Shown here in pieces: positions 12,164 through 56,510 of a DNA stretch of 64,000 nucleotides. Where the stretch lies: contig CM057154.1 of the NCBI GenBank assembly GCA_029962745.1, forward strand, positions 17,535,337 to 17,599,336, written 5' to 3'. Source of the DNA: Echinometra lucunter. Lineage: Eukaryota; Echinodermata; Echinoidea; Camarodonta; Echinometridae. A program made the translations under genes and the position numbers. The notes beneath the pieces were generated by a model that worked only from the letters and a program-made list of their open reading frames with translations, was not told the origin of the DNA and ran no database searches. Position 1 is the stretch's first letter. Every line of letters begins with the position of its first letter.

Positions 12164-12247
12164 TGAACTCCCCTACTTACAATACATACATGTACCTCCA
12201 TAAATAATCAAGTTGGGTCTCAGTTATTTCATTTTTAATTTTTCTAG

Positions 12248-14951: not shown

Positions 14952-15096
14952 GAGGGCGCCCTAACCACCGAGTGAGACACCATGTCTTCATGCTGAACTC
15001 TTTTAATTTTCACCTTTCCTAACTGATTTTACTCATTGGTGGTAAAAAGGTATGTTGATTCGATGATTTAAGTTTTCAAGTCAATATTGATTCATA

Positions 15097-32215: not shown

Positions 32216-33018
32216 TTCTGGGAGCTCTTCTTAATTTGTGATACTTTAACGATGAACAACTAACACAATTGGTACGTAGTCTTGCCCAAGACTTCAAAAT
32301 TAGTAAGAAAGCACTCACGACGTGTAAACAACAAATAACTTTTGTATATCCACAATCAGATTGCACACTCATCCACTGAAACTAATAAAACTCAGATGAA
32401 AAACTCTAACATCATTTTATGCCAACGATTTTGGAGAAAAATTTCCGAGATGTTGTCCATGTACCATGACTTCTGAATTTATGACGACACGTAAAAGACT
32501 AACTTATATGGCGTGTTTCTAAACAAATTGCGTCACGTCATAACACATCACGAGCGTGAGTAATTTCTGAATTAAAAAGTTTTTCTTTACACGGTGGCGC
32601 GCATAAAATAGGGGTGGACCAAAGACACCCCCCCCCCCCAACCCTCCGCTAGTTTCAAGCTGAGGCCAAATTTCAATAATTTTCCTCACCAAGTGAGCAT
32701 AATATAAATGGAAGGGGCGTAGATTTCTCGGGATGTGCAAACAACAAAACTACAACTGATTGTGATTAAATGAATTTGGCACTGGTATACGTGCATGAAA
32801 CAAAAATAAAAATTCAAACAAACAGAAGTGGAAAAATCATCGATGTTTAATACACATATTGGGCATGCATGCATGGACAAGCAGTAGTCATGTATGGCCT
32901 TAAGCCTCCCAGTGGGCGGTGGATCACACTCAGGAATGGCCGTGAAAAGAAGAAGAAGAAGAAGAAGACATCTAAACTTTCTACGGTCCAACCAGGGAGG
33001 TGCATGGCGCGTGTCCCA
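32216..33018. other. SNAP29 upstream flank, no gene seen
   Basis: Contains a GCGTCACGTCATAACACATC stretch (32529-32548) with CRE/E-box-like words, a C-run at 32630-32639 and an (AAG)n run at 32945-32968. 32979-33036 forms an imperfect hairpin around 'CCAGGGAGGTG' and 'CACCTCCTCCCTGG'. Confidence 0.45.
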
Positions 33019-33120
33019 CCTCCTCCCTGGTCCAACCCATCCTTTCGCTTATCAAAACAGTAGCACTATTTTATATAGCTCTGCTTCATTGTATGCCGAT
33101 CGCCTGCATTATGACGTTGT

Positions 33121-33196
33121 CATGGGAGAGGGGGGCGAGGGGCCCGGGGGGGGGGGTGGGGCGGGGGGGGGGGGGCGGGCCCGGGGGGGGGGGGGT
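33121..33196. repeat. G-run cluster (G-quadruplex prone)
   Basis: At least six runs of 4 or more G within 75 bp, interrupted by C or T. Copy 2 has a shorter, differently broken version at 45140-45191. Confidence 0.85.
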
Positions 33197-33579
33197 GGCC
33201 GCAGAGTTGTTGGATCAAAGTGACGGTGGGGTCAGCCTATTCTTATCTGCACCCATCAGTCTCTCTTTATATGTTTTTATCCAATTCTTTTTTTTCTTAG
33301 GTTTCTAACTTTTGTATGGGAGAACTACATACAAAGGCCCATGCAGGCTAGCCTCGGCCGGGTGCCCTATGCCTATACTACTCCCCGGGTTTAAAAAAAA
33401 AAAACCCCATAAAGTACCACAATACCAACTGGTATACAGCCATGCACGGTAAGTTGACGCTCTACCGCATAATTTAGAGGTGATTTGACGGTATATGGGC
33501 CTATATCATCATTAATATTAGTCAGAGATCATCATTATCATCTTTATCACTGCCTCCACTACCACCACCATTATCATAT

Positions 33580-33584
33580 CATTG

Positions 33585-33669
<85 letters not shown>
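33580..33669. repeat. (CAT)n microsatellite
   Basis: About 90 bp of nearly pure CAT/TCA repeat. The copy 2 equivalent at about 45628-45695 is shorter and interrupted by TTA variants. Confidence 0.95.
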
Positions 33670-33829
33670 TACCCATCACTCATCACCATCCGTCCATCAT
33701 TATCATGCCTATCATCACTGTCGTCACATCATCTGCAAGCACCCTATAACTAAACCTTTACAACGCAAAATAGTCTGCAGTCTGCTAGTCTGAATTGACC
33801 ATAGAGTTATACTGGATCAGACGGCACTC

Positions 33830-34140
33830 AGTGGCGTAGCTAGGATTTCATTTTAGGGGCGGTAGTGAGCACGCGAAGCGTACGAATCACTTTCTCCGCG
33901 CCGCTCCCGGGGGAGGGGGGGTGCAGGGAGGGGGAGGTTCTCCCTCCCTCGCGAAGCGCGGAAGCTGACGTTTCTTTGTCATTATTCCTTGTCTGCTCCC
34001 GCTCTTCTTACGTTCTCTTACCTTTTTCTTTCTCACTCATGCTTTTTTCTTCTTCCTTTTTTTTTTGGTGGCGTTTGGGGGCGACCGCCCCATCGCCCCC
34101 CCCCCCCCCCACTACGGCGCTTGCGCCACTTGCACCATAG
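33830..34140. mobile_element. Unclassified repeat with GTGGCGTAGCTAGGATT end
   Basis: The left end is CAGTGGCGTAGCTAGGATTT and the right end reads GCGCTTGCGCCACTTGCACC. 'GTGGCGTA' recurs inverted at 13973 and 22296. The interior is rich in C/T and G-runs. The equivalent in copy 2 is 45852-46168. Class unknown. Confidence 0.4.
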
Positions 34141-34829
34141 TCAAATTTGACTAGATTCTAGTGAAAATGACAAGAATTCTTGTAAAAAAAAATGAACAAA
34201 ACCGTATTGGTAATCAATTGGCTAGAATCGAGTCCAAGTTTGTGTTGGGGGTTGTGCCGGAATGATCCGGTGATCTGGTCAAATTATTTTACTAGAATTT
34301 TGTTTTTTTTTGTCTTAAAAAACAAAAACTATATTGTGTCAGTTTTTACTATACCACTACGGAGTGTACATTGCGTCTTAAGAGAATAATATAGCCCACG
34401 TGCATGCAGACAGAGAGAAAAGAAAAATAGAAAAGAAAAGATGAAAACTAAGAGGAAAAGAAATAATGGCAGAAAAGGGATTAGAAAAGAAAAAAGAGGA
34501 ACAAGATAAAACAATGAAGAAAAAAAGAAAAGAGAAAAAGGAAAGGAAAGATTAGAAAAGAAAAGAAAAGAAAAGAGAAAAAAAAATTTAAGAGAGAGAG
34601 AGAGGGGGGAGAGAAAGGAAGAAAAGGATAAGAAAAATATTAAAATGATTACAATAAAAATATATAAAAAAAGTAGTGGCAAAAATAGTCAATTTTGACT
34701 GCCTGCCAAAAAAAAAAAATAGATAAATAAAAGTAGAAGCCTAGCTGTGTAAAGTCTCATGTTCAGACCTCTGTTTCGACTGACGGCAGGGTTTGTGCCT
34801 GTAAAGAATGTACCAACGCACCACCACTA

Positions 34830-35058
34830 ACATCACCAACACCACTATCAGTTCACCACCATCATCACCCCGGTCGTCACCACCGCCACCGCCGCCGCCG
34901 CCGCCACCACCACCACCACCACCACCACCACCATCATCATCATCCATCATCATCATTCTTCATTCGCCATCATTACCGTCGGCATCATCATTATTCATCA
35001 TCATCATCATCATCATCATCATTATTCATCGTCATCATTACCGTCGGCATCATCATTA

Positions 35059-35127
<69 letters not shown>

Positions 35128-35200
35128 TTCATCTTCATCATTATTCATCGTCATCATTACCGTCGGTATCATCATTATTCTTCTTCATTCATCATCATCA

Positions 35201-35263
<63 letters not shown>
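34830..35263. repeat. (CCA)n/(CCG)n/(CAT)n compound microsatellite
   Basis: Long CAC, CCG and CAT blocks with internal 'ATTATTCATCGTCATCATTACCGTCGGCATC'-like higher-order units repeated about three times. Copy 2 (46830-47078) has far fewer units, so this is a hypervariable locus. The poly-His/Ser/Ile frames across it are not genes. Confidence 0.93.
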
Positions 35264-35264
<1 letters not shown>

Positions 35265-36543
35265 CATGCGCCGGCACATGCGTCACTGTCATGATCAGAA
35301 ACGAGATACACGTTAAAGGATTTAGGATCGGGCGTGAGATGAAAAATACATTCTTGAATTTTCGGGTCATGCAGTACAAATCCCAATATTTTGTGATTTT
35401 AGGACATATTGACTCAAATACATGCACCTATGCATGGTATGAGAATGTTAATAAGAGAAAACAGTCATTAGAAAACTTCCCTATATCATTAAGAAGTGTT
35501 TTGAAAAAGTTATTATCATCAAAAACCTTTGCAAAGAGAATTCCTGAAGAGAACAGTTTTTCACAGCGTAAAGTCAGTTTCCAACCTTTTTTTTCTTTTT
35601 CTTCTGTACTCAAGGCGGTCTGATTGTTCAAGCCTTTACAGGATAAGACGAGTCGTTTTGGGTCTTTGTCTGAATATCTGCTTGATTATCAAAAACAGAC
35701 CATTACAAGAAGTATGTTAGTTTCAGAGCAAAATGTTCGACATTAAAACCGTAAGTCGTAATCTAGCCAGACTCCAAATATTTTTTGAAGTGCACAATTT
35801 CAAGCAAGCATTAGACTTGATGATATTCTGTTAATTTCAAAATCATGCCTCAACCGAGTACGTGCATGGAATTAATGCCACTGACTATAAGAGTTGAGAA
35901 AAAACAATGAAATTGAATTGATCTCGGATCGATGACAATAAAGTAAGAAAGAAAGAGGCCAAGAAAGTAGAAAGAGAAAGAGAAAGAGAAAACAAAAGAA
36001 GGAAAAAGGAGAAAGAAGAAAGAAGAAAGAAAGAAAGAAAAAAAGAAAAAGGCAAACAAGCAAATGACTCAACACAAACAAAACAAAACAAAGCAAAACC
36101 AAAAGGTTTAGATCTTTGACTGTGAGCCTCTGCTGTGAGCATGTGATTGTCGCCCTCTATTGTTGAACTTTATAATTTCACGAATGATCTAATTTACATA
36201 CAGACGACAACAAGAAACTCATAACGTCATCTCGAAGATCTGTTACAAAGCTTGTTTCTTCACTGAATTTGGGGTTTTTTGTGCGAATGTCGAGAAAACT
36301 AAAGCATGGTTCGATGAGAAATATTGCAAAGAGTGCCTTTCCGGTTTAGAAGCCTCAAGTGGCTGTAAACAAGGCGTGTGCACTCTAATCGACGACAGAC
36401 AACAACGGTACGAGCTCTCGCGCTCTGTTGTGTTAACTTGGAGACAACGGAAAACAGCTGAGCCAGGAACACAGCAGCACTGACTGGTGTCAAAGTTGAG
36501 GGGTCAGGTAAGTGCAGTGCAGCTGGACACGGAATCTTACACA

Positions 36544-36611
36544 ATGTCGTACGTCGAAGGTGCCAGACGAATTCCGCGCGGAGGCAAGACAGTCAGGCCA
36601 CAGCCCGTTAG
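36544..36611 (+). CDS. BCAS3: BCAS3 coding exon 1, copy 1
   Basis: ATG at 36544 opens 22 codons ('MSYVEGARRIPRGGKTVRPQ', then PV) and two further bases, before donor GTTTGT at 36612. It is identical in coding sequence to copy 2 exon 1. 'VRPQPV' matches the 'VRPQAV' near the human BCAS3 N-terminus. This copy's exon 2 is broken, so a transcript starting here would need the second copy's exons or another allele. Confidence 0.7.
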
Positions 36612-36988
36612 GTTTGTCTTTGTCAACAAAATGAAAACGTTTTGCTTTGTACTCACACCTTTTGATGTTGTTGGTCATGGCCTCGGGAGTCTCGGGAAGG
36701 GGGGGGGGGGGGTGCGCTGGATAACTGCACGTCTTCAGTGACACTGTCAAGTCTTGCCAGAGTAGACTAGATCTAGTCTAACTTTGTTTTGTTAACAAAT
36801 CATTTTGCAATCATTCAAATTTAGTAATTAGTCTAGTCTCTTTTGATGTTAATATTTATGTGGTTGCAATACTGCTTGACTTGTAATTTTAATAAATTAT
36901 TTTTTCGTAGGGGTAGATCTAACTTTACACGTACATGTATATCCCTAGGCCTTACCCTTATCAAAGTTCTCCTAAATAATTACTCATT

Positions 36989-37144
36989 TACTGTAAACAT
37001 GGAATATTCGTGGTGTGGATATTTTCACACATGAATACAGTTGACCTAACTGTCCGCGAAAATAAAAAATGCGTGATTGTGTTCAATTCCAACTCGTTCA
37101 AACGCATAAAAATTAATCGTGCAAAAATTGCTACGTTTACAGTG
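36989..37144. mobile_element. TACTGTAA-ended MITE, family member A (copy 1, empty site for CACTATG MITE)
   Basis: The ends TACTGTAAA and TTTACAGTG are inverse. The interior 'TGAATACAGTTGACCTAACT...CCGCGAAAAT' resembles the element at 40372-40579. At 37113-37115 a single TTA marks the site where the copy 2 version carries the 269-bp CACTATG element. Confidence 0.6.
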
Positions 37145-38546
37145 TCAGTAGTGAGAAGATTGAACAGAGAGCAGTTTTCACAAGATTATTTGCCTTCCAT
37201 CTGCTTGCAGGAGTGATAGCATGGTCTTGATTTCTTGAAAATTTCAGTGCAAATGTCATTACAATTGTCAGTTAAAAATGTAGTATCTTAGATATCGCAT
37301 CTCGTCATTTCACATTCCAACTACATGTATGGTATGTATTCTAAATTGGATAAGGATGGTGTAGTGAGCTAGGCCTAATTAGGTAACTTAAAAACATTGC
37401 AGAATGAAAAAACGGATTAGAAAATATTAATGAAGGTTGAAAAAGTTCATGCCAAGTATTTGCTTAATATTCATTTTGAGTAGCCTTACAAGATTCCTCT
37501 AACTAGCTATAACACAGCACTGTCACGACGTGACAACGCTGTACAAGCGGGCATAGGCAAATCTTGCGAATTCACAACAAAAAGTGCGACTACATCGCGT
37601 ATGTGATGAGCGAATTCTCTCAGCTACATAAGTGACATTATCTTGAGATTGAATATTTGATTGATGATTATTTACTTCCTATATTTAATATTTGAAAACT
37701 TACAACTTACCAAGAAACCATGATTTATTGCTTCATGTGCTGCGGAAAATTCCGTTCTCTCCAACCGAAGTTTGACCTCTCGTACATAAAGTCTGTGTAT
37801 GCAAAGCCCAATTAACTAACAGGATACTGAACAGGTTCGCAAAGATTTTGTGTGTGTCAGTCTGGCTACCACTAAACGGGTTGACAGTTGCTGAGTGGTC
37901 ATTATCTTACACCAGTTGAATTTCTAACTCTTTTACCCTAGACCCAAAACTATAAATACATGCAATCCCTAGGCTTATCCTAACCTAACATATACATGTA
38001 TAGGTAAACATGCAATCCCAACTCCAAGTCTAATGAAATACAATCTCAAAATGAAAATAAAGCTGGAGAAACAATGCAGAAGGCTTCATTTGATCTTCTC
38101 TTTGTAACCCTTAAGATCCTGAAGATTCTCTCGGTGTAACCCTACCCTGATGGTACTACAAAGTCTCACAAGATGTTGTTCAATCAGAATTATATGAATT
38201 GTCAACAGAGGGAAGAGAGGCAAATGTGATTGTGCTTGCACTTACTTAATTCTGTCAAATAGGTGAAGAATTGCAAATCTTGTTTTCTTCAAAGTTTCCA
38301 GTCAATGCTGTACACTGTATACATGCACATTTGAAATGACTGCAATTTCATGAAGGGTTGAACTACTCTGCTTTATTATACCGTACATTTAGAATGGGGG
38401 GGGGGGGGGGGCCCACCGGGGTGGAGAAGAGAAGATAAATGTCCCATTATAAGAGCAAGAAAAGAAAAGCTCGGCATTTTTGTGATGTACCTATGTAAGC
38501 AGATCTGCCCCAAAATCTATTTTCTTTGTCATTTTTTTTTCCACAG
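37145..38546. other. BCAS3 intron 1 (copy 1), no other feature
   Basis: AT-rich, collinear with copy 2. Contains a G-run at 38397-38410. Confidence 0.55.
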
Positions 38547-38661
38547 CGATAAGTCATACAGGGCATCAGTGGTTGACTTCTTTCCATGATGCCTATGCAG
38601 ATCAGCCCCAGTAGAGAGACGCAAGATCAGCTGGTGAAATTTGAGAAGCCAGATGTCACAG
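38547..38661 (+). pseudogene. BCAS3: BCAS3 exon 2, copy 1, disrupted
   Basis: It aligns base for base with the intact exon at 50922-51037 but is 115 instead of 116 bp. It has an extra T after 'GACTTCTT', lost bases around 'GCAGATCAGCCCC' and 'GATCAGCTGG', and an ATG-to-AGG change in the conserved 'SYM' motif. The frame is lost early, and the donor reads GTGACT instead of GTGAGT. Either a decayed copy or poorly corrected sequence of an alternative allele. Confidence 0.85.
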
Positions 38662-39300
38662 GTGACTAGATATTGAATTCGATTTGAACAACAGGTGCTA
38701 CGTGTAGATCTAGATGTTCAGATGTCGTGATAATAATGGTTGGTAATATAGGGAGCCAAATTTGACAAGAGTGCTGAAGAGCAAAGGATCATCTTGAAAA
38801 ATGTCATGTAAAATGGCTCAGCAGTTATTGTGCACTCATTGAATGAATAGAGAATCATTATAGACAACAAAGAATTGATAGGAAGTGGTTGCTTTCTTTC
38901 TTTGTTTTGTATTCGTTGTGGTTTTGGGAGGAGCTGCAGGTCTCATGCCACTCATGAGTAATAATGATTGAAATAAACTGTATGAAGGAGGTTGTCTTGT
39001 AAGCAGCATTTAGATTCTATCAATGTACAGTGATGCAATCCATGCACTTCATTAATTGGAGGTAGGCTAATTTAGATTAATTTTTTTAATCAAAGGATAC
39101 TGTTGCAAGGATTTTCATTGTCAAATTCCATTCCATATGACCCTAAGTCTGGTGACTTACCTACTAGAAGAAACACTTTTGTATACTTATAGGCCACTTC
39201 TATAAAGCAACCCCCCCCCCCCTCTATAAAATTCAAGAATTTCAAAAAAAAAATCCTTATATGGTGTTACAGCCTTGATGTGTATTAAATTAAAATGTTA
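38662..39300. other. BCAS3 intron 2 (copy 1), first part
   Basis: AT-rich, collinear with 51038-51674. Only a C-run at 39211-39221 stands out. Confidence 0.5.
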
Positions 39301-39470
39301 TCTGCTGCTCCCAAACTGTGGAATCACTACCCCAAACACTCCGGAACCAACAATCTCTCAATGTTTCAAAAACCCCTAAAAACTCACTTGTTTCATTAAT
39401 AAGTTCTTTAAAGCGCATTTGAACATACTATATGGAAAATGCGCTATATAAATGCATAATATTATTATTA
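39301..39470 (+). mobile_element. LINE 3'-end insertion present only in copy 1
   Basis: 170 bp absent from the same place in copy 2 (around 51676). It encodes 'PKLWNHYPKHSG' and 'FQKPLKTHLFH', the usual C-terminus of CR1/L2-like reverse transcriptases, followed by 'GCGCTATATAAATGC' and an ATT repeat tail. The same tail type is seen at 55125-55230. Confidence 0.85.
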
Positions 39471-40371
39471 TGCTGTACAGTAATTTCACTAATTTATGTT
39501 ACCAGTTTCTGAGAGGCCATGTGTGTATGATAACTATTTGACCTGCAGTGACAGAAGTACTTCTATGTTTTCATAATATTGCTTTGTCATGATTCGTTTA
39601 TGGGACTGAACTTTGATTCATTTTCCAGTCTACAGATGAAAATGGTCAAAACATTGTAGTTAGAGAAGTCATATGATCTTGAAATCATAACCACAACTGC
39701 ATGTATTGTACTCCCACATACCTACAGTATTTGATTTTACAGTTGCCATAACATATACATGTACTGTAATGTCAAAGGTATGTAAAAATAAACTATTTGT
39801 ATCATCCAAAGCAGCAATCTGACAAGATTATTTTTTTGAGGTGTACAATACTTGGGATTTAAAAAAAAAGAAAGAAAAATAATATCCCACCTTAACATTG
39901 TACATGTACATGTAGTTTTTCCAGAGGACACATTGTCTTTGGAGTATGTGTGTGTAGACTCTAGAGCAATTGTTTGCCGACATGAGTATTAGCAAAAATT
40001 ATCTTTGAGAGGATTAAAAGTCTGGATGTATTCATTCAACAAGAAGAGAGTTATTTTGTGTGACAAGACATACACAATACCCAATAATGATGTGAAGTGT
40101 GAATGAATGAAAGCATTGCTGAATTCAGTGTTAGCAATAACTTGTATACTATATGCAAAATTTAATGTAGAGAGATTGATAAAACATTGCTTCTTAATCT
40201 TTCTGGAAGAAAAAGAAGAGAAAAAAAACAATAACTGAAAACATCTTTACTGGTAATTTAATAAAGGGTGTATTATTATTATTGACCTACTTTATATTGT
40301 TTTGTCATTATATAGGCTTAGAATGTTCCTTTAATCAGTAAACTAAAACAATGTAAATTTATGGAGTAGAG

Positions 40372-40579
40372 TACTGTAATCATGGAGTATTTGTGGAAAT
40401 TTTCCCAAATTTTGCGCAGCCCGACACTTGCGCCAAAATAAAACCGCACATAATATTTTGTATATTATGCATGTGAATACAGTTTTTCTATCTGTCCACA
40501 AAAATTAAAAATGCGCAATTGTGTTTTAACACGGCCGAGCACGGAAAATTGATAACGCGAAAATTTCCATTTTACAGTA
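40372..40579. mobile_element. TACTGTAA-ended MITE, family member B (copy 1, without hAT insertion)
   Basis: The ends TACTGTAAT and TTTACAGTA are inverse. The interior shares 'TGTGAATACAG' and 'CGCGAAAATTTCC' with member A. The site gcgaaaat (40557-40564) is single here but duplicated around a 360-bp insertion in copy 2. Confidence 0.65.
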
Positions 40580-40832
40580 CTTATTTTGTACCCCTCTACC
40601 CACCCCCCTCCCCACCTGCCAAGACTGAAGCACTGAAGAACACTTTCAATTTCAATTCAATTTATTGACCATTAAAAAGACATAAAAATATTTACAAAAT
40701 AACATAATACAACAAAATTCAAAATATAACAGGTTACAAGTTTCTTAATGGTCAGGACCCCTAAGAAGCAAGACTGCTTATAGCCGGGGCCCTACAAATA
40801 TACAAATAACATAACTGATAAAAGGGTTATAA

Positions 40833-43807
40833 TCAAATACACACACACATACACACACTTTCACACTTCATCACACAATGCAAAAACACAGGAGATAGAA
40901 TAGAATAGAAGATAAGACGAGATAAAAAAGAAGATAAAATACTATTACAGGGTGGGATTTGAGTTCTTAAATAATTGAACAAAAATGACTTTGAAAGTAA
41001 CTTAAATCGTGAGAGTGTTGTGCTGTTTTTTATATCAGAATTGAGAGAATTCCATTCTTTCACCCCGATATATCTGATGGAATTGCGAATAAAATTAATT
41101 TTAGAAAAAGGAATACGATAGTTGTTTTGATGTCTAGTAGAGTAATTATGAATTTGAGAATTTGTATGAAACATTTGTGAAAAATTTTCTGGAAGGGTGC
41201 CTTTGTGAAATTTAAACATAAAATCCATGTATTTAAACGAATTAATTCAAATAAAGGTAACACTTTGTGTTTAACAAAAAGAGGCGCACTTGGACTCATA
41301 TAATGAGAATTTGTTAACAAACGAAGAGCTTTCTTTTGTAAAATAAATAATTTAGATAAATTTGATTTAAAGGTGTTACCCCAAATAATATTACAATAGT
41401 TAAGATGGGGAAATAATATAGAATAATAAATATTAAGTAATATGCTGAGGGGCAAAAAATCCTTAAGTCTGTACAAAACTCCAATACATTTTAGAACTTT
41501 GTTACAAACATTATCAATGTGTTTTTTCCATTCCAAGTTTTCTTGAATAGTGACACCTAAAAAGTCAATACAATCTTTCCTTTCAATAGCAATGCCATCA
41601 ATTTTAACATATTCAATATTACTTACAATTTTTTTCCTTTTGGAATGGAAGATAACATACTTTGTTTTTTCAAGATTAAGTTGTAGTTTATTACATTTGA
41701 ACCAGGCATTTAAGTTACATAACTCAGAATTAACTGTAGAAATCAATTTAGGTAAATTAGAGTGAGAACATAAAACAGCAGTGTCGTCTGCAAACAAGGA
41801 GAATTTAAATATTTTTGATGAGAATAGAATATCATTTACATATAAAATAAACAAAAGCGGCCCTAAAACTGAACCTTGTGGAATACCGACATCAATATTC
41901 ATGTGATTGGATTCGACACCATCGATCACCACATATTGTTTACGATTGGATAAATAACTGGCAAACCACTGCAGTGGAATACCACGAACCCCATAATAAT
42001 TCATTTTTTCCAAAAGAATGTGGTGATCGATGGTGTCAAAAGCCTTAGATAAATCCATAAATACTCCACAACAAAAGTGACCTCTATTCAATTCTTCTAA
42101 GATATAATCTGTAAAATTTAATATACTGAGTGATGTGCTAAAATCTTTACGGAAACCAAATTGGTCGTTAATAAGAATCTTGAATCTATTTAAAAAGGCA
42201 TACAATCTTTTGTGCATCAGCTTTTCTAAAATTTTACTGAATACTGGTAATAAAGCCACTGGCCTATAATTTTCAATATTATCCACATTATTTTTTTTAT
42301 ATTGGTATTATCTTTGCAAGTTTTATATTGTCTGGCACGGTTCCTGTAATAAATGACTTATTAAACACATCACACAGAGGATGAACAAAGTGATGAATAC
42401 ATTGTTTCACAATTTTTGGAGATATACCATCCGGTCCACATGCTTTATTAATTTTTAGAGATGATGATATTTCTATAATTTCGTTTACAGAGACTGGTTT
42501 GACAAAGAAGGAGTTGAATTGTTTATTTGGTAAAAAATCATTAAATGATTGGGTTGATACAATTGAATTTGAAATTTTTTTTTTCCTACATTGACGAAAA
42601 TGAATTGAAATATTGAGCAATATCTCTCTGAGAATCAAATTTCATGCTTCCATGAAACATTGTTTTAGGTATATTTTTTTGTTTTTGTTACCTAATATTG
42701 AATTTATTTGTCTCCAAGTTTTTTTCAAATCACCCTTGACATTGTCAAACAAATCTCTGTAAAGTTTTCTTTTAGAAAATCTGATAATATTGGTTAGGTT
42801 GTTTTTATACAATAAATATTTTTTCTTATGTTGATCACTAGGTCTCTTTAAGTATGTTTGAAATAACCTATGTTTACGTTTAACTGATTGCAATATTCCT
42901 TTTGTGATCCAAGGCTTTTTGTATCTCTGCTTCTTATCTACATGGTTTACCCTCATGGGAAAACATTTATCATAGATTTTATAAAACTTTTCAAAAAATA
43001 TATTATAACATTCATTTGCATCTTCACATTTATATCCATCCAACCAATTGACAGAATCTAGTTTTTCTTTAAACATATTTACATTTGCATCATTAATAAT
43101 CTATTCTTTTTAAAGTTATTAACATGATGAGTATATACAGATTTATGATGCGAAATGCAAAATATAGGGAAATGGTCAGAGCAGTCACTATAAAGAATAC
43201 CAATTTGCTGCTTTCTTCCTCATTCACAGTATTAGTATAGATATTGTCAATTAAGGAAATTGTGCTATGTGTAACCCTTGTTGGTTTTGTTATTAATGGA
43301 TACATATTATATGAAAACATAGTATCTAGGAAAAAGTTTGTTTTGTTGTGAATACCATAATTTATCAGATTTATATTATAATCACCCAATACATATATGT
43401 CCTTCTTCTCACATTCTAATGTATCAAACATTGTTTTTATTTTCTCAGTAAAGGGTGTGATATTAGTGTCAGGGCGACGATAAATACATCCAATTACAAC
43501 TGATTTATTATTTTGAACAGTTTCAATAAACAAGGTATCAGCATACTCAGTGGATGAAGAAAGATCAGCAAGAACTGTATATTCTATATTACATTTAACA
43601 TATAAGGCTACACCCTCCACCTGTCTGTGTTGGTCTGCACACTTGCACTAATGAATAACCATCTATATTGAACATATCATAATGAGTAGAAGGTTTGAAC
43701 CATGTCTCAGATATTGCTATAAAACTAAATTCATGGTCAATAGATGACAAAAGTATTTGAATCTCATTAAAATTCTTAGGCAAGCTTCTGGCATTCAAAT
43801 GTAACAT
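40833..43807 (-). pseudogene. CR1/L2-like ORF2 (endonuclease-reverse transcriptase), frameshifted
   Basis: Read from high to low coordinates. Endonuclease pieces: 'LNARSLPKNFNEIQ', 'FSFIAISETWF' (43807-43595), 'YRRPDTNI', 'VLGDYNINL' (43620-43093). Linker: 43076-42642. Reverse transcriptase: 'NKACGPDGISPKIV' (42638-42297), 'NYRPVALLPVFSKILEKL', 'DLSKAFDTIDH', 'GIPQGSVLGPLLF' and catalytic 'FADDT' (42286-41060). C-terminal 'VKEWNSLNSDIKN' (41228-40833). At least five frame changes separate these pieces, so it cannot make a full protein as written. Confidence 0.9.
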
Positions 43808-44264
43808 AGAAATATCTGTTTTTGTATACTTATATTGACTGTTGAAAACATCACAGAAGGTATATTTACAATTGTTTTCATATAAAGAATTACAATCTTC
43901 ATCAGATAAATATTTTCAACATCAAAGTTTTGAAATGGTAAGTTCATGTCAAATGGATTCATTTTTAATTTCAACAGCTTATCAATGTCTATACCTTTGT
44001 TAAGATTGAAAAAGTATACACTGACCAAAGAAATTCACAGTCATCATTATAGTGATTGAATGGAAAAATCCCAGATGAACAATTAGAACACAATGAAGTA
44101 ATGGAAGAGGAAGAACAGTACACACACACAGCCATACACACCACACTCACTCTTTATTAAAAAAAGGCAGAATAAATGAAGACTTACTACAAATAGGTAG
44201 CATGAAACACACCACACAGGCTCAAGGAGCTTTCAAGTTCAGTTTATATATATTCAGTTAAAGT

Positions 44265-44400
44265 TTACAGTTTGCCAAGTTCATCTTTGCATTTAATCAA
44301 TTGCTTCATTGGATTCCTGTTACTTGGAGTTGGATGCTTCACTATGAACACACGACCATCCATGGTCCATGTAGACTGGACCTTTCATGTTCTTCGCTGC
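44265..44400 (-). pseudogene. LINE ORF1 C-terminal remnant
   Basis: On minus a short frame reads 'STWTMDGRVFIVKHPT' to 'KCKDELGKL' and stops at 44265. A 'W/FT.DGK/RI/VF(V)' motif closing ORF1 is common in CR1/L2-like LINEs of marine animals. It lies directly upstream of the endonuclease frame, as expected. It is frameshifted further upstream. Confidence 0.45.
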
Positions 44401-44530
44401 CAGTAAAGTTCATGATTGCAAGCCCGTCAGATCTTCATGAATTGTAATCCCACTTCCTTTCAACTTTCTTCGATTTCCCTAGAAGTTTCTGTTTTGCGCG
44501 ATATGAGGTCATCTTGACTATAATGCCGCG

Positions 44531-45030
44531 NNNNNNNNNNNNNNNNNNNNNNNNNNNNNNNNNNNNNNNNNNNNNNNNNNNNNNNNNNNNNNNNNNNNNN
44601 NNNNNNNNNNNNNNNNNNNNNNNNNNNNNNNNNNNNNNNNNNNNNNNNNNNNNNNNNNNNNNNNNNNNNNNNNNNNNNNNNNNNNNNNNNNNNNNNNNNN
44701 NNNNNNNNNNNNNNNNNNNNNNNNNNNNNNNNNNNNNNNNNNNNNNNNNNNNNNNNNNNNNNNNNNNNNNNNNNNNNNNNNNNNNNNNNNNNNNNNNNNN
44801 NNNNNNNNNNNNNNNNNNNNNNNNNNNNNNNNNNNNNNNNNNNNNNNNNNNNNNNNNNNNNNNNNNNNNNNNNNNNNNNNNNNNNNNNNNNNNNNNNNNN
44901 NNNNNNNNNNNNNNNNNNNNNNNNNNNNNNNNNNNNNNNNNNNNNNNNNNNNNNNNNNNNNNNNNNNNNNNNNNNNNNNNNNNNNNNNNNNNNNNNNNNN
45001 NNNNNNNNNNNNNNNNNNNNNNNNNNNNNN
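44531..45030. other. Assembly gap (500 N)
   Basis: Fixed-length placeholder. Left edge lies inside a LINE. The right edge starts inside the duplicated segment at the point equivalent to 33019, next to an imperfect hairpin. Confidence 0.98.
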
Positions 45031-45559
45031 CCTCCTCCCTGGTCCAACCCATCCTTTCGCTTATCAAAACAGTAGCACTGTTTTATATAGCTCTGCTTTC
45101 ATTGTATGCCAATCGCCTGCAATTATGACGTTGTCATGGGAGAGGGGGCGAGGGGCCGGCGGGGGGCGGGGGCGGGGGGGGGGGGGGGGGGTGGCCGCAG
45201 AGTTGTTGGATCAAATTGACGGTGGGGTCAGCCTATTCTTATCTGCACCCATCAGTCTCTCTTTATAATTATGTTTTTATCCAATTCTTTTTTTCTTAGG
45301 TTTCTAACTTTTGTATGGGAGAACTATATACAAAGGCCCATGCAGGCTAGCCTCGGCCGGGTGCCCTATAAGTAATATACTACTCCACGGGTTTAAAAAA
45401 AACACCCCATAAAGTACCACAATACCAACTGGTATACAGCCATGCAAGGTAAGTTGACGCTATACCGCAATAATTAAGGGTTGATTTGACGGTATATGGG
45501 TCTATATCATCATTAATATTAGTCAGAGATCATCATTATATCATCTTTAATCTTTATCA

Positions 45560-45638
45560 CTGCCGCCACCACCACCACCACCACCACCATCACTGCCGTC
45601 ACCACCACCACCATTATCATATCATTGTCATCATCATT

Positions 45639-45673
<35 letters not shown>

Positions 45674-45695
45674 TATCATCATCATCATTATCATC
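45560..45695. repeat. (CAC)n/(CAT)n microsatellite, copy 2
   Basis: Counterpart of 33540-33669 with expanded CAC and contracted CAT. Confidence 0.9.
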
Positions 45696-46829
45696 CATCA
45701 CTCATCACCATCCGTCCATCATTGTCATGCCTATCATCACTGTCGCCACATCTGCAAGCACCCTATAACTAACACTTTACACGCTATTTTATAGTCTGCA
45801 GTCTGCTAGTCTGAACTGACCATAGAGTTATACTGGATCAGACGGGCACTCAGTGGCGTAGCTAGGATTTCATTTTAGGGGGCGGTAGTGAGCACGCGAA
45901 GCGTACGAATCACTTTCTCGCGCGCTCCCGGGGGGGGGGGGGGGGTGCAGGGAGGGGGAGGTTCTCCCTCCCTCGCGAAGCGCGGAAGCTGACGTTTCTT
46001 TGTCATTATTCCTTGTCTGCTCCCGCTCTTCTTACGTTCTCTTTCCTTTTTCTTTTCTCACTCATGCTTTTTTCTTCCTTTTTTTTTTTTTTTTTTTGGT
46101 GGCGTTTGGGGGCGACCGCGGCCCCATCGCCCCCCCCCCCCACTACGCGCTTGCGCCACTTGCACCATAGTCAAATTTGACTAGATTCTAGTGAAAATGA
46201 CAAGAATTCTTGTAAAAAAATGAACAAAACCGTATTATAATCAATTGGCTAGAATAGTGTTGGGGGTTGGTGCCGGAATGATCCGGTGATCTGGTCAAAT
46301 GATTTCACTAGAATTTTTTTTTTTGGTCTTTAAAAAAACAAAACTATATTGTGTCAGTTTTTACTATAACACTACGGAGTGTACATTGCGTCTTAAGAGA
46401 ATAATATACCCCACGTGCATGCAGACAGAGAGAAAAGAAAAATAGAAAAAAAAGATGAAAATTAAGAGGAAAAGAAACAATAGCAGAAAAGGGATCAAAA
46501 AAGAAAAAAGAGGAACAAGATAAAACAATGAAGAAAAAAAGAAAAGAGAAAAAGAAAAGGAAAGATTAGAAAAGAATAGAAAAGAGAAAAGAAAAAAATA
46601 ATTTTAAGAGAGAGAGAGAGAGGGATAGAAAGGAAGAAAAGGATAAGAAAAATATTAAAATGATTACAATAAAAATATATGAGAAAAGTAGTGGCAAAAA
46701 TAGTCAATTTTGACTGCCTGCCATAAATAATAATAGATAAATAAAAGTAGAAGCCTAGCTGTGTAAAGTCTCATGTTCAGACCTCTGTTTCGACTGACGG
46801 CAGGGTTTGTGCCTGTAAAGAATGTACCA

Positions 46830-47045
46830 ACGCACCACCACTAACACCACCAACACCACTATCAGTTCACCACCATCATCACCCGATCGTCACCACCACC
46901 ACCACCACCACCACCACCACCACCACCATCATCATCATCAAAATCATCATCATCATCATCATTATTCATCGTCATCATTACCGTCGGCATCATCATTATT
47001 CATCATCACCATCATCATCATCATCATCATCATCACCATCATCAC

Positions 47046-47077
<32 letters not shown>

Positions 47078-47078
47078 C
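46830..47078. repeat. (CCA)n/(CAT)n microsatellite, copy 2
   Basis: Counterpart of 34830-35263, about 185 bp shorter and lacking most CCG units. Confidence 0.9.
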
Positions 47079-47457
47079 ATGCGCCGGCACATACGTCACC
47101 GTCATGATCAGAAAACGAGATACACTTTAAACAGTGCTGAGTATTTAGATCGGGCGTGGGATGAACTTTTTATACATTCTTGAATTTTTCGGGTCAGTGC
47201 AGTACAAATCCCAATATTTTGTGATTTTAGGACATATTGACTCAAATACACCGTATGCATGGTATGAGAAATGTTGATAATAAGAGAAACAGTCATTAGA
47301 AAACATCACTATATCATTAAGAAGTGTTTTGAAAAAGTTATCATAAAACCTTTGCAAAGAGAATTCCTGAAGAGAACATGTTTTCACAGCGTAAAGTCAG
47401 TTTCCAACTTTTTTTCTCTTCTTCTGTACTCAAGGCGGTCTGATTGTTCAGGCCTTT

Positions 47458-47765
47458 TTCAAGTTTTTTTCAAGTTCAGGTTTTATTTCCAATATAACAC
47501 AAGACATAAAATATCTTTTTCTTCTTTTAAACAGAAATATCGTAAATTAACATACAACATTTTTTTCCTCTTATTAACATCAAAACAAATTAAATGTCTG
47601 CTTGACATAGTGTATTAAAAGAAAAAAAAATGATATTGGAAAAGAGAAATCCACAAAAAAGCAATGCTTGTAGTGACGTGGATTCCTCAGGAAAGAAAAA
47701 GGAAAGTAAAGAAAAGAAAACAGAAGAATGTATGATACAGAGGTAGGTGAAACAGCACTATATAT
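47458..47765 (-). mobile_element. CR1/L2-like LINE 3'UTR fragment, only in copy 2
   Basis: Matches the 3' end of the LINE at 9649-9965 (CAAGTTCAGGTTTTATTTCC, GCAATGCTTGTA, GGATTCCT, ATGATACAGAG). Copy 1 at 35635-35640 has uninterrupted sequence. A severely 5'-truncated insertion, probably young relative to the divergence of the two copies. Confidence 0.88.
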
Positions 47766-48665
47766 TTACAGTATAATACGAGTCGTTTTTGGTCTTTGTC
47801 TGAATATCTGCTTGATTATCAAAACAGACCATTATAAGAAGTATGTTAATTTCAGAGCAAAATTTTCGACATTAAAACCGTAAGTCGTAATCTACCCAGA
47901 CTCCAAATATTTTTTTGAAGTGCACAATTTCAAGCAAGCATTAGACTTGATGATATTCTGTTAATTTCAAAATCATGCCTCAACCAAGGTACGTGCATGG
48001 AATTAATGCCACTGACTAATAAGAGTTGAGAAAAAACAATGAAATTTGAATTGATCTCGGATCGATGACAACAAAGTAAGAAAGAAAGAGACCAAGAAAG
48101 TAAGAAAGAGAAAGAGAAAGAGAAAAACAAAAGAAGGAAAAAGAGAAAGAAAGAAAGAAAGAAAGAAAGAAAAAAAGAAAAAGGCAAACAAGCAAATGAC
48201 TCAACACAAACAAAACAAAACAAAGCAAAACAAAAAGGTTTAGATCTTTGACCGTGAGCCTCTGCTGTGAGCATGTGATTGTCGCCCTCTATTGTTGAAC
48301 TTTATATTTCACGAATGATCTAATTTACATACAGACGACAACAAGAAGCTCATAACGTCATCTCGAAGATCTGTTACAAGCTTGTTTCTGAACTGAATTT
48401 GGGGTTTTTTGTGCGAATGTCGAGAAAACTAAAGCATGGTTCGATGAGAAATATTGCAAAGAGTGCCTTTCCCGGTTTAGAAGCCTCAAGTGGCTGTAAA
48501 CAAGGCGTGTGCACTCTAATCGACGACAGACAACAACGGTACGAGCTCTCGCGCTCTGTTGTGTTAACTTGGGAGACAACGGAAAACAGCTGAGCCAGGA
48601 ACACAGCAGCACTACTGACTGGTGTCAAGTTGAGGGTCAGGTAGCTGGACACGGAATCTTACACA

Positions 48666-48733
48666 ATGTCGTACGTCGAAGGTGCCAGACGAATTCCGCG
48701 CGGAGGCAAGACAGTCAGGCCACAGCCCGTTAG
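48666..48733 (+). CDS. BCAS3: BCAS3 coding exon 1, copy 2
   Basis: ATG at 48666; 22 codons plus AG, then donor GTTTGT at 48734. Joined to exon 2 it gives 'VRPQPV-S-DKSYM', matching human 'VRPQAVTEQSYM'. BCAS3 is a WD40-type beta-propeller protein that binds PI3P, associates with PHAF1 at forming autophagosomes, and is linked to cytoskeleton and Cdc42 control. With the intact exons downstream, this is the better candidate for the functional first exon. Confidence 0.85.
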
Positions 48734-49117
48734 GTTTGTCTTTGTCAACAAAATGAAAACGTTTTGCTTTGTACTCACACCTTTGATGTTGTTGGTCATG
48801 GCCTCGGGAGTCTCGGGAAGGGGGGGGGGGGGGGGGGGTGCGCGCTGGATAACTACACGTCTGCAGTGACACTGTCAAGTCTTGCCAGGAGTAGACTAAC
48901 TTAGTCTAACTTTTGTTAACATTTTGCAATCATTCAATTAGTAATTAGTCTATGGTCTCTTTTGATGTTAATATTTATGTGGTTGCAATACTGCTTGACT
49001 TTGTAATTTTATAAATTATTTTTTTTCGTAGGGGTAGAGTCTAGATCTAACGTTAGTTTACACGTACATGTATAGATCTATCCCTACCCTTATCAAATTT
49101 CTCCTTAATTATTTATT

Positions 49118-49551
49118 TAGTGTAAACATGGAATATTTCGTGGTGTGGATATTTTCACACATGAATACAGTTGACCTAACTGTTCGCGAAAATAAAAATT
49201 GCGTGATTGTGTTCAATTCAACTCGGCTAAACACAAAAAATTACACTATGAACATGGCGGACAAAGAAAGCGGACAAAATAAACAACCTCTCATTCTACC
49301 CTTCACAATGGTTCTGGTAGTCAAAAGAACATCCCTTCACTGCTATTATGTTTAATCATGTAGTTCCAGCTGAATATGCACGTGACACCTGTTCCACATA
49401 TTTTAGACAATAGCAGTGAAGGGATGTTCTTTTGACTGCCAGAACTATTGTGAAGAGTAGAATGAGGGGTTGTTTATTTTGTCCGCTTTCTTTGTCCGTC
49501 ATGTCCATAGTGTTAATTGTGCAAAAATTGCTACTTTTACAAATTACAGTG
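49118..49551. mobile_element. TACTGTAA-ended MITE member A with nested CACTATG MITE
   Basis: Same element as 36989-37144 but split by the 269-bp insertion at 49244-49512. Confidence 0.6.
49244..49512. mobile_element. CACTATG foldback MITE, copy 2 (269 bp)
   Basis: Same length and nearly same sequence as 25882-26150, flanked by TTA on both sides (49241-49243, 49513-49515). The empty allele at 37113-37115 has TTA once, proving a precise insertion with 3-bp duplication. Confidence 0.93.
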
Positions 49552-50921
49552 TCAGTAGTGAGTAGATTGAACAGAAAGCAGTTTTCACAAGATTATTTGC
49601 CTTCCTTCTGCTTGCAGGAGCGATAGCATGGTGTTGATTCCTTGAAAATTTCGGTGCAAATGTCATTATAATTGTCAGTTGAAAATGTAGTAGACCTGAG
49701 ATAGCACATCTCATCATTTCACATTCCAACTACATGTATGGTATGTACATGTATTCTAAATTGGATAAGGATGGTGTAGGGAGCTAGGCCTGAGGAGGTA
49801 ACTGTATAAACATTGCAGAATGAAAAACGGATTAGAAAAGATTAATGAAGATTAATGAAGGTTGAAAAAGTTCATGCCATGTATTTGCTTAATATCATTT
49901 TGAGTAGCCTTACAAGATTCCTCGAAACTAGCTATACACAGCACTGTCACGACGTGACAACGCTGTACAAGCGGGCGTAGGCAAATCTTGCAAATTCACG
50001 ACAAAAAGTGTGACTACATCGCGTATGTGATGAAGCTGAATTCTCTCAGCTACATAAGTGACATTATCTTAAAATTGAATATTTGATTGATGATTATTTA
50101 CTTCCTATGTTTAATTTGAAAACTTACAACTTACTAAGAAACCATGATTTATTGCTTCATATGCATGCGGAAATTCCGTTCTCTCTAACCGGAAGTTTGA
50201 CCTCTCGTACATAAAGTCTGTGTATGCAAAGCTCAATTACCTAACAGGATACGGTACCGAACAGGTTCGCAAAGATTTTGTGTGTGTCAGTCTGGCTACC
50301 ACTAAACGGGTGACAGTTGTTGAGTGGTCATTATCTTACACCAGTTGAATTTCTAACTTCTTTTGCCCTAGACCCAAAACTATAAATACATGTAATCCCA
50401 AGGCTTATCCTAACCTGTATAGGTAAACATGCAATCCCAACTCCAAGTCTAATGAAATGACAATCTCAAATGAAAGTAAAGCTTGGAGAAAACGATGCAG
50501 AAGGCTTCATTTGATCTTCTCTTTGTAACCCATAAGATCCTGAAGATTCTCTCGGTGTAACCCTGATGGTAACTACAAAGTCTCACAAGATGTTGTTCAT
50601 TCAGAATTATATGAATTGTCAACAGAGGGAAGAGATGCAAAATGTGATTGTGCTTGCACTTACTTATTTTTGTCAAAGTAGGTGAAGTGACAATTGCAAA
50701 TCTTGTTTCTTCAAAGTTTCCAATCAATGCTGTACACTGTATATTCATGAGGGTCGAACTACTGCTTTATACCTTTACATTTAGAATGGGGGGGGGGGGG
50801 GGAGAAGAGAAGATAAATGTTCCATTATAAGAGCAAGAAATAAAAGCTCAGCATTTTTTGATGTACATGTAAGCAGATCTGCCCCCAAATCTATTTTTCT
50901 TTGTCATTTTTTTTTTCACAG

Positions 50922-51037
50922 TGATAAGTCGTACATGGCATCAGTGGTTGACTTCTTCCATGATGCCTATGCAGGATCAGCCCCTGTAGAGAACGACAAG
51001 ATCATCTGGGTGAAATTTGAGAAGCCAGATGTCACAG
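50922..51037 (+). CDS. BCAS3: BCAS3 coding exon 2 (intact copy)
   Basis: 116 bp between acceptor CACAG and donor GTGAGT. Encodes 'DKSYMASVVDFFHDAYAG' and 'DKIIWVKFEKPDV', aligning with human 'QSYMESVVTFL', 'EKIVWVRFENADL'. This is the first strand region of the beta-propeller. The phases (1 base in, 1 base out) fit exons 1 and 3 exactly. Confidence 0.95.
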
Positions 51038-52062
51038 GTGAGTAGATATTGAATTCGATTTGAACAACAGGTGCTACGTGTATATCTAGATGTTCAGATG
51101 TCTTGATAATAATGGTTGGTAATATAGGGAGCCAAATTTGACAAGTGGCTGAAGAGCAAAGGATCAGCTTGAAAAAATGTCATGTAAAATGGCTCAGCAG
51201 TTATTGTGCACTCATTGAATGAATAGAATCATTACAGACAACAAAGAATTGAAAGGAAGTGGTTTGCTTTCTTTCTTTGTTTTTGTATTCGTTGTGGTTT
51301 TGGGAGGAGCTGCAGTCTCATGCCACTCATGAGTAATAATGATTAAAATAAACTGTATGAAGGAGGTGTGTCTTGTATGCACATTTAGATTCTATCAATG
51401 TGCAGTGATGCAATCCAATGCGCTTCATTAATTAGAGTAGCTAATTTAGATTAATTTTTGAAATCAAAGGATACTGTTGCAAGGATTTTTATTGTCCAAT
51501 TTCCATTCCATATGACCCTAAGTCTGGTGACTTACCTACTAGAAGAAAACACTTTTGTATACTTATAGGCCACTTCTTATCAAGCAACCCCCCCCCCCCT
51601 CTATAAAATTCCAGAATTTCAGGAAAAAATCCTTATATGGTGTTACAGCCTTGATGTGTATTAAATTAAAATGTTATGCTGTACAGTAATTTCACTAATT
51701 TATGTTAGCAGTTTTTGAGAGGCCAATTTGTGTATGATAACTATTTGACCTGCAGTGAGAGAAGTACTTCTATGTTTTCATAATATTGCTTTGTCATGAT
51801 TCTTTTATGGGACTGAACTTTGATTCATTTTCCAGTCTACAGATGAAAATGGTCAAAACATTGTAGTTAGAGAAGTCATATGATCTTGAAATCATAACCA
51901 CAACTGCATGTATTGTACTCCCACATACCTACAGTATTTGATTTTACAGTTGCCATAACATATACATGTAATGTCAAAGGTATGTCAAAATAAAACTATT
52001 TGTATCATCCAAAGCAGCAATCTGACAAGATTATTTTTTTGAGGTGTACAATACTTGTGATT

Positions 52063-52093
<31 letters not shown>

Positions 52094-52578
52094 CCTTAAC
52101 ATTGTAGTTATTCCAGAGGACACATTTTCTTTGGAGTATGTGTGTGTAGAGTCTAGAGCAATTGTTTGCAGACATGAGTATTAGCAAAAATTATCTTTGA
52201 GAGGATTAAAATCTGGATGTATTCATTCAACAAGAAGAGAGTTGTTTTGTGCGACAAGACATACACCATACCCAAATAATGATGTGAAGTGTGAATGAAT
52301 GAAAGCATTGCTGAATTCAGTGTTAGCAATAACTTGTATACATATGCAAAATTTAATGTAGAGAGATTGATAAAATATTGCTTGTTAATCTTTATAAAGA
52401 AGAAAAAGAAGAAGAAGAAGAAGAAGAAGGAAAAAAAAAAAAAACCCAACTGATCAACATCTTTACTGGTAATTTAATAAAGGTGTATCATTATTATTGA
52501 CCTACTTTATATTGTTTTGTCATTATATAGGCCGAGAATGTTCCTTAAACCAGTAAAATTATATGTAAAGTCATGGAG

Positions 52579-53178
52579 TACTGTAATCGTGGAGTACTAG
52601 TATTTCGCGGTGTGGAAATTTTCGCAAATTTCGCGCGGCCCGACACTTGCGCCAAAATACATGTAAAATTGCACAAAATATTTCGTATATTATGCATGTG
52701 AATACAGTTATCCTATCTGTCCACAAAAATTTAAAATGCGCAATTGGCCTTGGGTTTAACACGGCCGAGCGCAGAAAATTTATAACGTGAAAATCAGGGT
52801 TCTCACTAGAAAAAAATCCACACATGGTTCCCACTCTGCGCAAAGCATGGAAGTTTTGGAACTTTTGCGGAATAACACCTAAAGTTAGGTGTGGTGGCAG
52901 TATATGATATAGTAAAAGGAAAATGCTTCTTGGTAAGCAGGAGTTGCCTACTAATGGCATAAAAGTAAAAATATATTGCCAAAAAGCAAAACAATCTGTG
53001 ACATTTATCATTATTGTTAGGAATATATACTCCAATATTTTTTTACCCTTGTTGCCACGCAAGATGCAACAATTTCACACGTGGTTCTTCCTTGTTTGAA
53101 ACCCTTCACGCATAGTATTGGAACCTTGGGTGTTATGTACTGGCGAGAACCATGGCGAAAATGTCCATTTTTGCAGTA
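52579..53178. mobile_element. TACTGTAA-ended MITE member B with nested hAT-like insertion
   Basis: Counterpart of 40372-40579, interrupted by the 360-bp element at 52795-53154. Confidence 0.65.
52795..53154. mobile_element. hAT-like non-autonomous element, 360 bp
   Basis: The ends CAGGGTTCTCACTAG and CTGGCGAGAACCATG are imperfect inverses. Flanked by an 8-bp duplication gtgaaaat (52787-52794) / gcgaaaat (53155-53162) with one change. Copy 1 shows the single pre-insertion site at 40557-40564. An 8-bp duplication and CAGGG end are hAT hallmarks. No transposase frame. Confidence 0.88.
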
Positions 53179-53602
53179 TTTTGTACCCCTCTACCCACCC
53201 CCCCCCCCCCCCTCCCCACCTGCCAAGACTGAAGCACTGAAGAACACTTTGTCTTTTTCAAATCCTTCCAAGGTACATCTATATAAGGAAATAAATACAT
53301 CTGGTTTTCTGTTCTTTAATTTGTTGCTGTTGTGTTTTTTTTTTTGATGAAAAGTACTCTCAGTACATTGCTTATTTCTTATTGTAGGGATGGAGTTGAT
53401 TCCAGTTTATGATTTTTGTCACACAGTATAGTTCTCGATGAACCAACTTAAACTGTATGTAGAACTCACTTGCAAGTACTTGGTAAATACACGTATCTGA
53501 CTTATTTTTTTCAAATAGTAGCACCACTCAAGGCCCATTTCATGGCTGAATTTGAAAAAAGCAGTATTAAAAAAGTTGTAAACATCTTCCATCTCTTTGC
53601 AG

Positions 53603-53691
53603 ATTATATGAACCACTCACAAGAGGCACCGGAATGTCCGTTGTTTCTTGTCATTGGCTACACTAATGGTGTACAGATATGGAGCATTTTG
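53603..53691 (+). CDS. BCAS3: BCAS3 coding exon 3
   Basis: 89 bp after acceptor TTTGCAG, ending at donor GTGAGT. Encodes 'DYMNHSQEAPECPLFLVIGY' then 'TNGVQIWSIL', the propeller blade that in human reads 'PPLLIMIGYSDGMQVWSI'. Outside the duplicated segment and present once. Confidence 0.95.
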
Positions 53692-53860
53692 GTGAGTACA
53701 GAAAGTGAATAGCGGATTGGGGTTCAACACGTACTTAATTTTTATGGGTTTTGCACTGATTTGGAGAGGGGGGTCCATATGTATGGGTCCCATGTTAGTT
53801 TTTGGATTTTGGGGGATTTTGTAGGAAAAATTGAGGGGTACATACATGTAGGTCGTCCCG

Positions 53861-54147
53861 GGGGGTGTTTCATAAAGCTGTTCATAAAGTTACGAATGAC
53901 TTGAATATTAAGTGCCAAATGTGATGATGTTTTAACAAAGTGTGACTGCATTTCCCATAGTCTCAATTAAATTGTGGCAAAAAAAAAATACAATTTGCAA
54001 TAAAGATTTTAAACAAAAATTCTAATTTTCATATTTCATCTTTAGCGGATGCAATTTATAATGTTAAAGCAACCCAATTTGCTTGCCATATTCAAATCGT
54101 TCGTAAAGTCATTCGTAACTTTATGGAAAACTTTATGGAACACCCCC
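53861..54147. mobile_element. MITE with GGGGGTGTTTCATAAAGCTG termini, copy 2
   Basis: Same family as 23154-23496. The right end has a small internal duplication of the TTTATGGAA word. Confidence 0.85.
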
Positions 54148-55124
54148 TGGATGCCTGTGTGTGTTAACTTAATTCAAGAGAATTCTTGAAGAAAAATATT
54201 GGTATTCAACTTCTCATTCAAACTCCTAATATGCATGTTCTTGTTTGAGTATTTCTGTGTTTATTGGATAGAACTGATTAATCATTTATCTAATAATTTG
54301 TAGCTCAATATGCCATACAAATTGAAATTTTGTCACACAACTTGGTAAAATGACAGAAAGTGTATTTGAGTGATTGGTGCACTACAAGTGATCCTGTCTT
54401 TAAACCATTTACGTGTATGAGAAAGCAAAAAACCTACAGGGTTATTACACATTTTAGGTCTACGGGTATTATGTATTTAAGATCTGTTGTAGTCTTGTAC
54501 AGAACATTCCCCACTCTCGGTCTTATGCGATGTAGCTCAGCTATACACAGTGGACAGCCTATAAAAGTTACAGTGGATACCCTGGAAATTTGTGTTTATG
54601 AGGAGGGGATAATAATTTTACATGTAGGCCTGCTGTGTAACATAAGTGGCAAGTACATTAAATTCAGCTTCCGTAAATATATATATACATGTATATATAT
54701 TTTTTTTTTGGGGGGGGGAGGGGTTATGTGTGACTATGACACATACAACAGTCCCGTCAGTAGAAGTTGGACATGGATTGAGCCATAGTGCGTCTACATG
54801 TATATAGGCTTTCATTTTAATGACTACTGACAACAAATGCCAGTAAATTGATCTTGGGTATCATACTGCACAGTTGAATACATAGAAACCTACAGCAAGG
54901 ATCTAGATAAAACAAACTGCCCCCACCCCCTCAGAAAAAAGGAGAATTACGTGAATAATTAACATATATGTACATGTAATGTAATATAATATGTGATCTT
55001 TATATTTTTCCATGGAGAAGTATCATCATCATCATTCATGTTGACTAAATATTTTTATGTTCAAGTAAATGCATAATTTCTTAATTTTATGTGAATGTAC
55101 AGTATATTATGCTCCTTGTACATG

Positions 55125-56336: not shown

Positions 56337-56510
56337 CCTGATATTGAAACAAATGAATTTAAGCATGGCAGAGCAAACTCAATACTCTGAGTCTGAATTA
56401 CATTTATGTTGTGTAGGTTCTAAACCTACTGATATTGAAACAAACAAATAAGCGTGGCATATTAAACTCAATACTCTGAAATACATTTACATTGTGTAGG
56501 TTCTAAATCC
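56337..56510. repeat. Two-unit tandem repeat (about 85-92 bp)
   Basis: 'CTGATATTGAAACAAA...AACTCAATACTCTGA...TTGTGTAGGTTCTAAA' occurs twice in a row, directly before the 79-bp array. Confidence 0.8.

Follow-up and report, generated by a model that had tools for sequence, protein, structure and literature searches.

The window analysed here is a 64,000-nucleotide stretch of the Echinometra lucunter genome assembly GCA_029962745.1 (CM057154.1; C4:17535337-17599336 in the assembly as searched, 743 Mb in 2266 sequences), and it carries the 5' part of the sea urchin BCAS3 gene, the promoter region and first two exons of which are present twice. Copy 1 (33019-40646, plus strand) comprises the BCAS3 promoter region, exons 1 and 2 and introns, and copy 2 (45031-53250, plus strand) again comprises the promoter region and exons 1 and 2. 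Copy 1 lies near the end of contig A (2505-44530; 42,026 bases flanked by two 500-N gaps), the last 11.5 kb of which consist of this duplicated tail and a long interspersed nuclear element (LINE). Copy 2 forms the start of contig B, and a scaffold gap of 500 N at 44531-45030 separates the two contigs. An earlier annotation made from the letters of this DNA (hereafter the sequence-only reading) had copy 2 beginning abruptly at the gap edge, and indeed 45031 is the first base after the gap.

In order to place the exons, the 913-residue Lytechinus pictus protein P0123 was used, and matches below 55% identity were left off the list. The coding part of exon 1, as matched by P0123, lies at 36544-36609 in copy 1 and at 48666-48731 in copy 2, and the two versions show no differences in 66 columns. 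Exon 2 occupies 38545-38660 in copy 1, where it is damaged, and 50920-51036 in copy 2, where it is intact and 39 of 39 residues are identical to P0123. Exon 3 (53602-53691, with its right edge read at a GT donor) and exon 4 (62845-62979) were each found once, and all of these exons are on the plus strand. The translation of exons 2-4 is a 95% match to BCAS3 of L. pictus and L. variegatus. Later BCAS3 exons gave ordered matches outside the window up to window-relative position 92344, such that P0123 residues 1-854 and 863-913 are matched in order from 48666 to that position, collinear with sea urchin BCAS3; for residues 855-862, no match was found at or above the identity threshold. Intact BCAS3 begins in copy 2, and the first two exons are the only ones present in copy 1. 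The sequence-only reading had remarked that copy 1 has no exon 3, which is true but holds equally for copy 2: the shared sequence ends 352 bp before exon 3, and neither copy contains it. Since the shared stretch stops short of exon 3, the absence of this exon from copy 1 is not a deletion.

Comparison of the two copies by global alignment and by self-comparison with the basic local alignment search tool (BLAST) bore out the proposed collinearity over ∼8 kb, non-coding DNA included, between 33019-40646 and 45031-53250. The collinear self-BLAST blocks (33019-35078/45031-47080; 35065-35637/46886-47457; 35635-37115/47765-49243; 37113-39304/49513-51681; 39468-40564/51674-52794; 40557-40646/53155-53250) have identities of 84-93% with gaps counted. 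In the global alignment, 467 of 7054 columns are mismatched (6.6%) and there are 127 gaps; when tandem repeats are left out, these figures become 391 of 6287 columns (6.2%) and 116 insertion or deletion (indel) events, 62 of them of 1 base, 42 of 2-9 bases and 12 of at least 10 bases. The copies thus differ in the manner of haplotypes, by substitutions, indels and insertions. Counted in intervals of 250 columns, the differences number between 2 and 30 (variance/mean 2.96 over 27 intervals), an unevenness along the region as in recombining alleles, although gene conversion between duplicates could do likewise.

Superimposed on these small changes are five larger presence/absence differences. 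Copy 2 alone carries a ∼310-bp dispersed repeat (47456-47765) with relatives elsewhere, a 271-bp inverted-repeat element resembling a miniature inverted-repeat transposable element (49242-49512; 96.7% like 25881-26150) and a ∼360-bp repeat (52795-53154; 92.5% like a place ∼82 kb away), while copy 1 alone carries a 170-bp insertion (39299-39468) and the LINE (40647-44530, minus strand). Relatives elsewhere were found for four of the five. For the 170-bp insertion, no relative was detected within 264 kb, so that the sequence by itself is the basis for regarding it as mobile, probably as the 3' end of a truncated LINE. With this qualification, the many small indels and at least five mobile-element insertions described earlier stand. 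Because insertions are present on both sides, the two copies have evolved apart for some time, whether as alleles or as duplicates. A further dispersed repeat, at 37504-37858 in copy 1, has many relatives at 79-87% across the genome.

The LINE adjoins the shared sequence directly: it begins at 40647 with its 3' end, in the orientation given by its open reading frame (41060-42307, minus strand), which encodes an RVT_1 domain, and a weak endonuclease match, below the Pfam cut-off, lies at 43093-43647. When the last part of contig A (43700-44530) was compared with the whole assembly, 98% matches were found on sequences C12 and C7, covering the whole query, and on C5 (query positions 3-740), in addition to three weaker ones. 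The C12 and C7 copies remain mutually alike for 457 bp or more beyond the position that corresponds to 44530, and the match to the C5 copy stops ∼90 bp short of it. Since the C12 and C7 copies run on in this way, contig A stops inside the LINE. The two copies had been described as separated by a LINE and a 500-N gap; the gap does lie between them, but the LINE is not a spacer, as it closes contig A and is cut by the contig end.

Considering the coordinates at this join, the alignment runs from the first base of contig B to the last non-LINE base of contig A, a dovetail. Once the LINE private to copy 1 is set aside, the duplicated stretch reaches the contig ends on both sides, and the contigs overlap right up to their ends, the pattern predicted for a meeting of two haplotype contigs. 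Deduced from coordinates, this geometry falls short of proof, as the gap could conceal a real junction. In contig A, the base equivalent to the start of contig B falls inside a short inverted repeat (∼32988-33040, arms read by eye), which may or may not be related to the contig break. Both gaps in the window (2005-2504 and 44531-45030) are exactly 500 N, as are all four gaps in the 264 kb examined; the gap at 2005-2504 is AAG-rich on both edges, and the contig join there may sit in a microsatellite. Across these 264 kb, matching pairs of at least 700 bp consist solely of blocks of the BCAS3 5' duplication, and they match across the gap, which stands between the duplicated pair on a single scaffold.

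Whole-assembly searches covered parts of the region, namely 46000-48000, 36100-40500, 53251-55000 and 27400-29300. Apart from dispersed or short repeats, no third copy was found in the whole assembly of either 46000-48000 (40 of 3744 candidates scored) or 36100-40500 (40 of 1168 candidates scored). Likewise, no second copy was found of the right flank at 53251-55000, a dispersed repeat excepted, or of the left flank at 27400-29300.

Taken with the divergence, which is near to somewhat above published sea urchin heterozygosity, the contig-end geometry, the single-copy state of the sampled flanks and the lack of a third copy of the searched stretches support the two-allele interpretation towards which the sequence-only reading leaned. 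We infer that the two copies are allelic, and the BCAS3 5' pair is in all likelihood a heterotype false duplication, that is, uncollapsed haplotypes at a contig join. The duplicated BCAS3 start is most likely an ordinary assembly artefact and no new gene copy. In such a scheme, the sequenced urchin would be heterozygous, with both haplotypes presumably collapsed into one contig to the left of 33019; from 33019 on, the haplotypes would differ enough for the assembler to have followed both. Haplotype A, corresponding to copy 1, would carry the LINE insertion at 40647, and its contig would stop inside this LINE, whereas the contig of haplotype B, corresponding to copy 2, would start at 45031 and continue through the rest of BCAS3. 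Scaffolding would then have abutted the two contigs and left the 8-kb overlap untrimmed. This scaffolding was probably of the Hi-C type, because the gaps are uniformly 500 N; gaps of this size are used by some Hi-C scaffolders. On this view, the animal would possess a single BCAS3 locus and a single promoter, and the LINE would be a heterozygous insertion.

Several results weigh against this interpretation, the main one being the state of exon 2 in copy 1. Single-base indels shift its frame, an in-frame stop follows the first shift, and non-synonymous changes as well as one altered splice-donor base are present relative to copy 2. Such damage, beside a fully conserved exon 2 in copy 2, suits a dead duplicate, and a haplotype explanation needs either a consensus error or a null allele. 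Much of the damage is probably consensus error. According to a Vertebrate Genomes Project report, the quality of one haplotype can remain lower, and false duplications act similarly (PMC8081667). Independently of exon 2, the LINE provides a measure of consensus quality near the end of contig A: over 2227 columns, the window copy has 17 private indels compared with 1, 1 and 2 in three other copies, while its private substitutions (9) are in line with theirs (9, 4 and 9). An excess of single-base indels in the contig A tail is typical of poor consensus, and consensus error is therefore shown near the contig end. However, this LINE test reveals an excess of indels without an excess of substitutions, which leaves the substitutions in exon 2 unexplained. 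Within 500 bp on either side of exon 2, the ratio of single-base indels to substitutions is 19:62 compared with 47:361 elsewhere (p=0.007), but narrower intervals, of 250 bp on either side (p=0.11) or the exon by itself (p=0.21), show no significant rise, such that the indel cluster around exon 2 is only partly supported as a sign of consensus error. For contig B, a repeat in copy 2 showed no private indels compared with 0-2 in five other copies, over 292 columns only.

Two further results point the same way as exon 2. The divergence of 6.2% is somewhat above published urchin heterozygosity (∼2-5%), although the published values are genome-wide and the 8-kb stretch compared here is mostly non-coding. 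Heterozygosity is given as ∼3% in L. variegatus to 5% in Strongylocentrotus purpuratus and as 3.47 and 4.40% in Arbacia lixula (PMC11310861), and as 2.11% in Diadema setosum (PMC11066563). In addition, an overlap was seen at only one of the four gaps in the 264 kb, a small sample, when 15 kb on each side were compared: of the other three, two showed no matches between their 15-kb flanks, and one showed only shorter repeat matches, the longest of the eight best listed being 491 bp.

The damaged exon 2, found in copy 1 only, also argues for the alternative named in the sequence-only reading, that the BCAS3 promoter and exons 1-2 underwent a genuine tandem segmental duplication, either fixed or polymorphic, with its junction in the unassembled gap; copy 1 would then be a 5' remnant in decay that has a promoter of its own, and copy 2 would drive the intact gene. 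As the gap would hide the junction, no sequence forbids such a duplication, and like any genuine tandem segmental duplication the locus has two collinear copies in the same orientation. Unlike one, it shows no junction inside the assembled sequence, the join being occupied by the gap, and its copies end at contig ends. A duplication would moreover require a breakpoint at or to the left of 33019 and additional sequence hidden in the gap, copy 1 would have to be interrupted by the LINE where visible homology stops, and only two versions of the searched stretches were found in the assembly. The promoter region and exon 1 are kept in both copies, the block at 36168-36660 differing at 11 of 477 columns compared with 6.3% elsewhere, but this is weak evidence and no test of two working copies, as a model in which a single copy is constrained, with half the neutral rate, is also compatible (p=0.18). 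We consider a genuine duplication unlikely, and slightly less likely still the specific case of a real, possibly polymorphic duplication in which a decaying, promoter-bearing copy 1 could drive a short transcript upstream of the intact gene.

Other ways of arriving at two copies fare worse. Contigs from two individuals in pooled DNA, or a misjoin, might have been set side by side by the scaffolder, and at this locus DNA pooled from several animals would be indistinguishable from two alleles. Yet the gene runs on in copy 2 with order and orientation unchanged, and the assembly yielded no further copy of the stretches searched, which makes such an origin very improbable. A homotype false duplication, in which one allele is assembled twice through read errors, would be in keeping with the excess indels of the contig A tail. 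The five large presence/absence differences and 6.2% substitutions go beyond read errors alone, however, and the copies are far from identical apart from such errors; homotype duplication was rejected on these grounds, with next to no probability left to it.

The favoured explanation, uncollapsed haplotypes, has close parallels. The marks of false duplications named by Ko et al. (2022) are half depth, discordant pairs, 1-copy k-mers and gaps between duplicated pairs (PMC9516828), the last of which is present here. Such gaps, as well as lower-quality second haplotypes, are described for these errors (PMC9516828, PMC8081667). Like the false heterotype duplications so termed by the Vertebrate Genomes Project and described in these two reports, the BCAS3 pair would consist of divergent haplotypes placed one after the other on a single scaffold, on either side of a gap at a contig boundary, with a partial gene duplication and one copy of lower base quality. 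The BCAS3 case differs in concerning a sea urchin, in its higher divergence (6.2%) and in the LINE that closes one contig. GABRG2 in an earlier zebra finch assembly was in part falsely duplicated in tandem (PMC8081667), with four of its ten exons doubled compared with two exons here. The BCAS3 5' pair is ordinary as biology and useful as an annotation warning, in that gene models might include a duplicated BCAS3 start or an additional promoter found on no chromosome. If allelic, the 8-kb pair is also a ready example of sea urchin haplotype divergence, with ∼6% substitutions and five large presence/absence differences, a heterozygous LINE among them.

Further downstream in the same gene, a tandem array at window-relative 77805-78946 (C4:17613141-17614282) repeats part of a BCAS3 exon (residues ∼422-450), with 4.6 copies of ∼138 bp at 78299-78946 and weaker copies from 77805. 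Because this putatively coding array lies inside one contig without a gap, true local amplification is more plausible for it than for the 5' pair.

Elsewhere in the window, a coding piece of an LLC1-family protein (PF14945) was noted at 12204-12806, and the coding stretch 12228-12806 has two database matches, in L. variegatus (66%) and D. setosum (49%). Another coding piece, at 28530-29123, has a weak V-SNARE_C match below the Pfam cut-off. Another LINE is present at 15091-20369; its endonuclease and RVT_1 domains are divided between frames that overlap. Two tandem repeats were also detected, one of 79 bp at 56508-56982 (six copies, 97% matches) and one of 68 bp at 61707-62062 (∼five copies, 81% matches).

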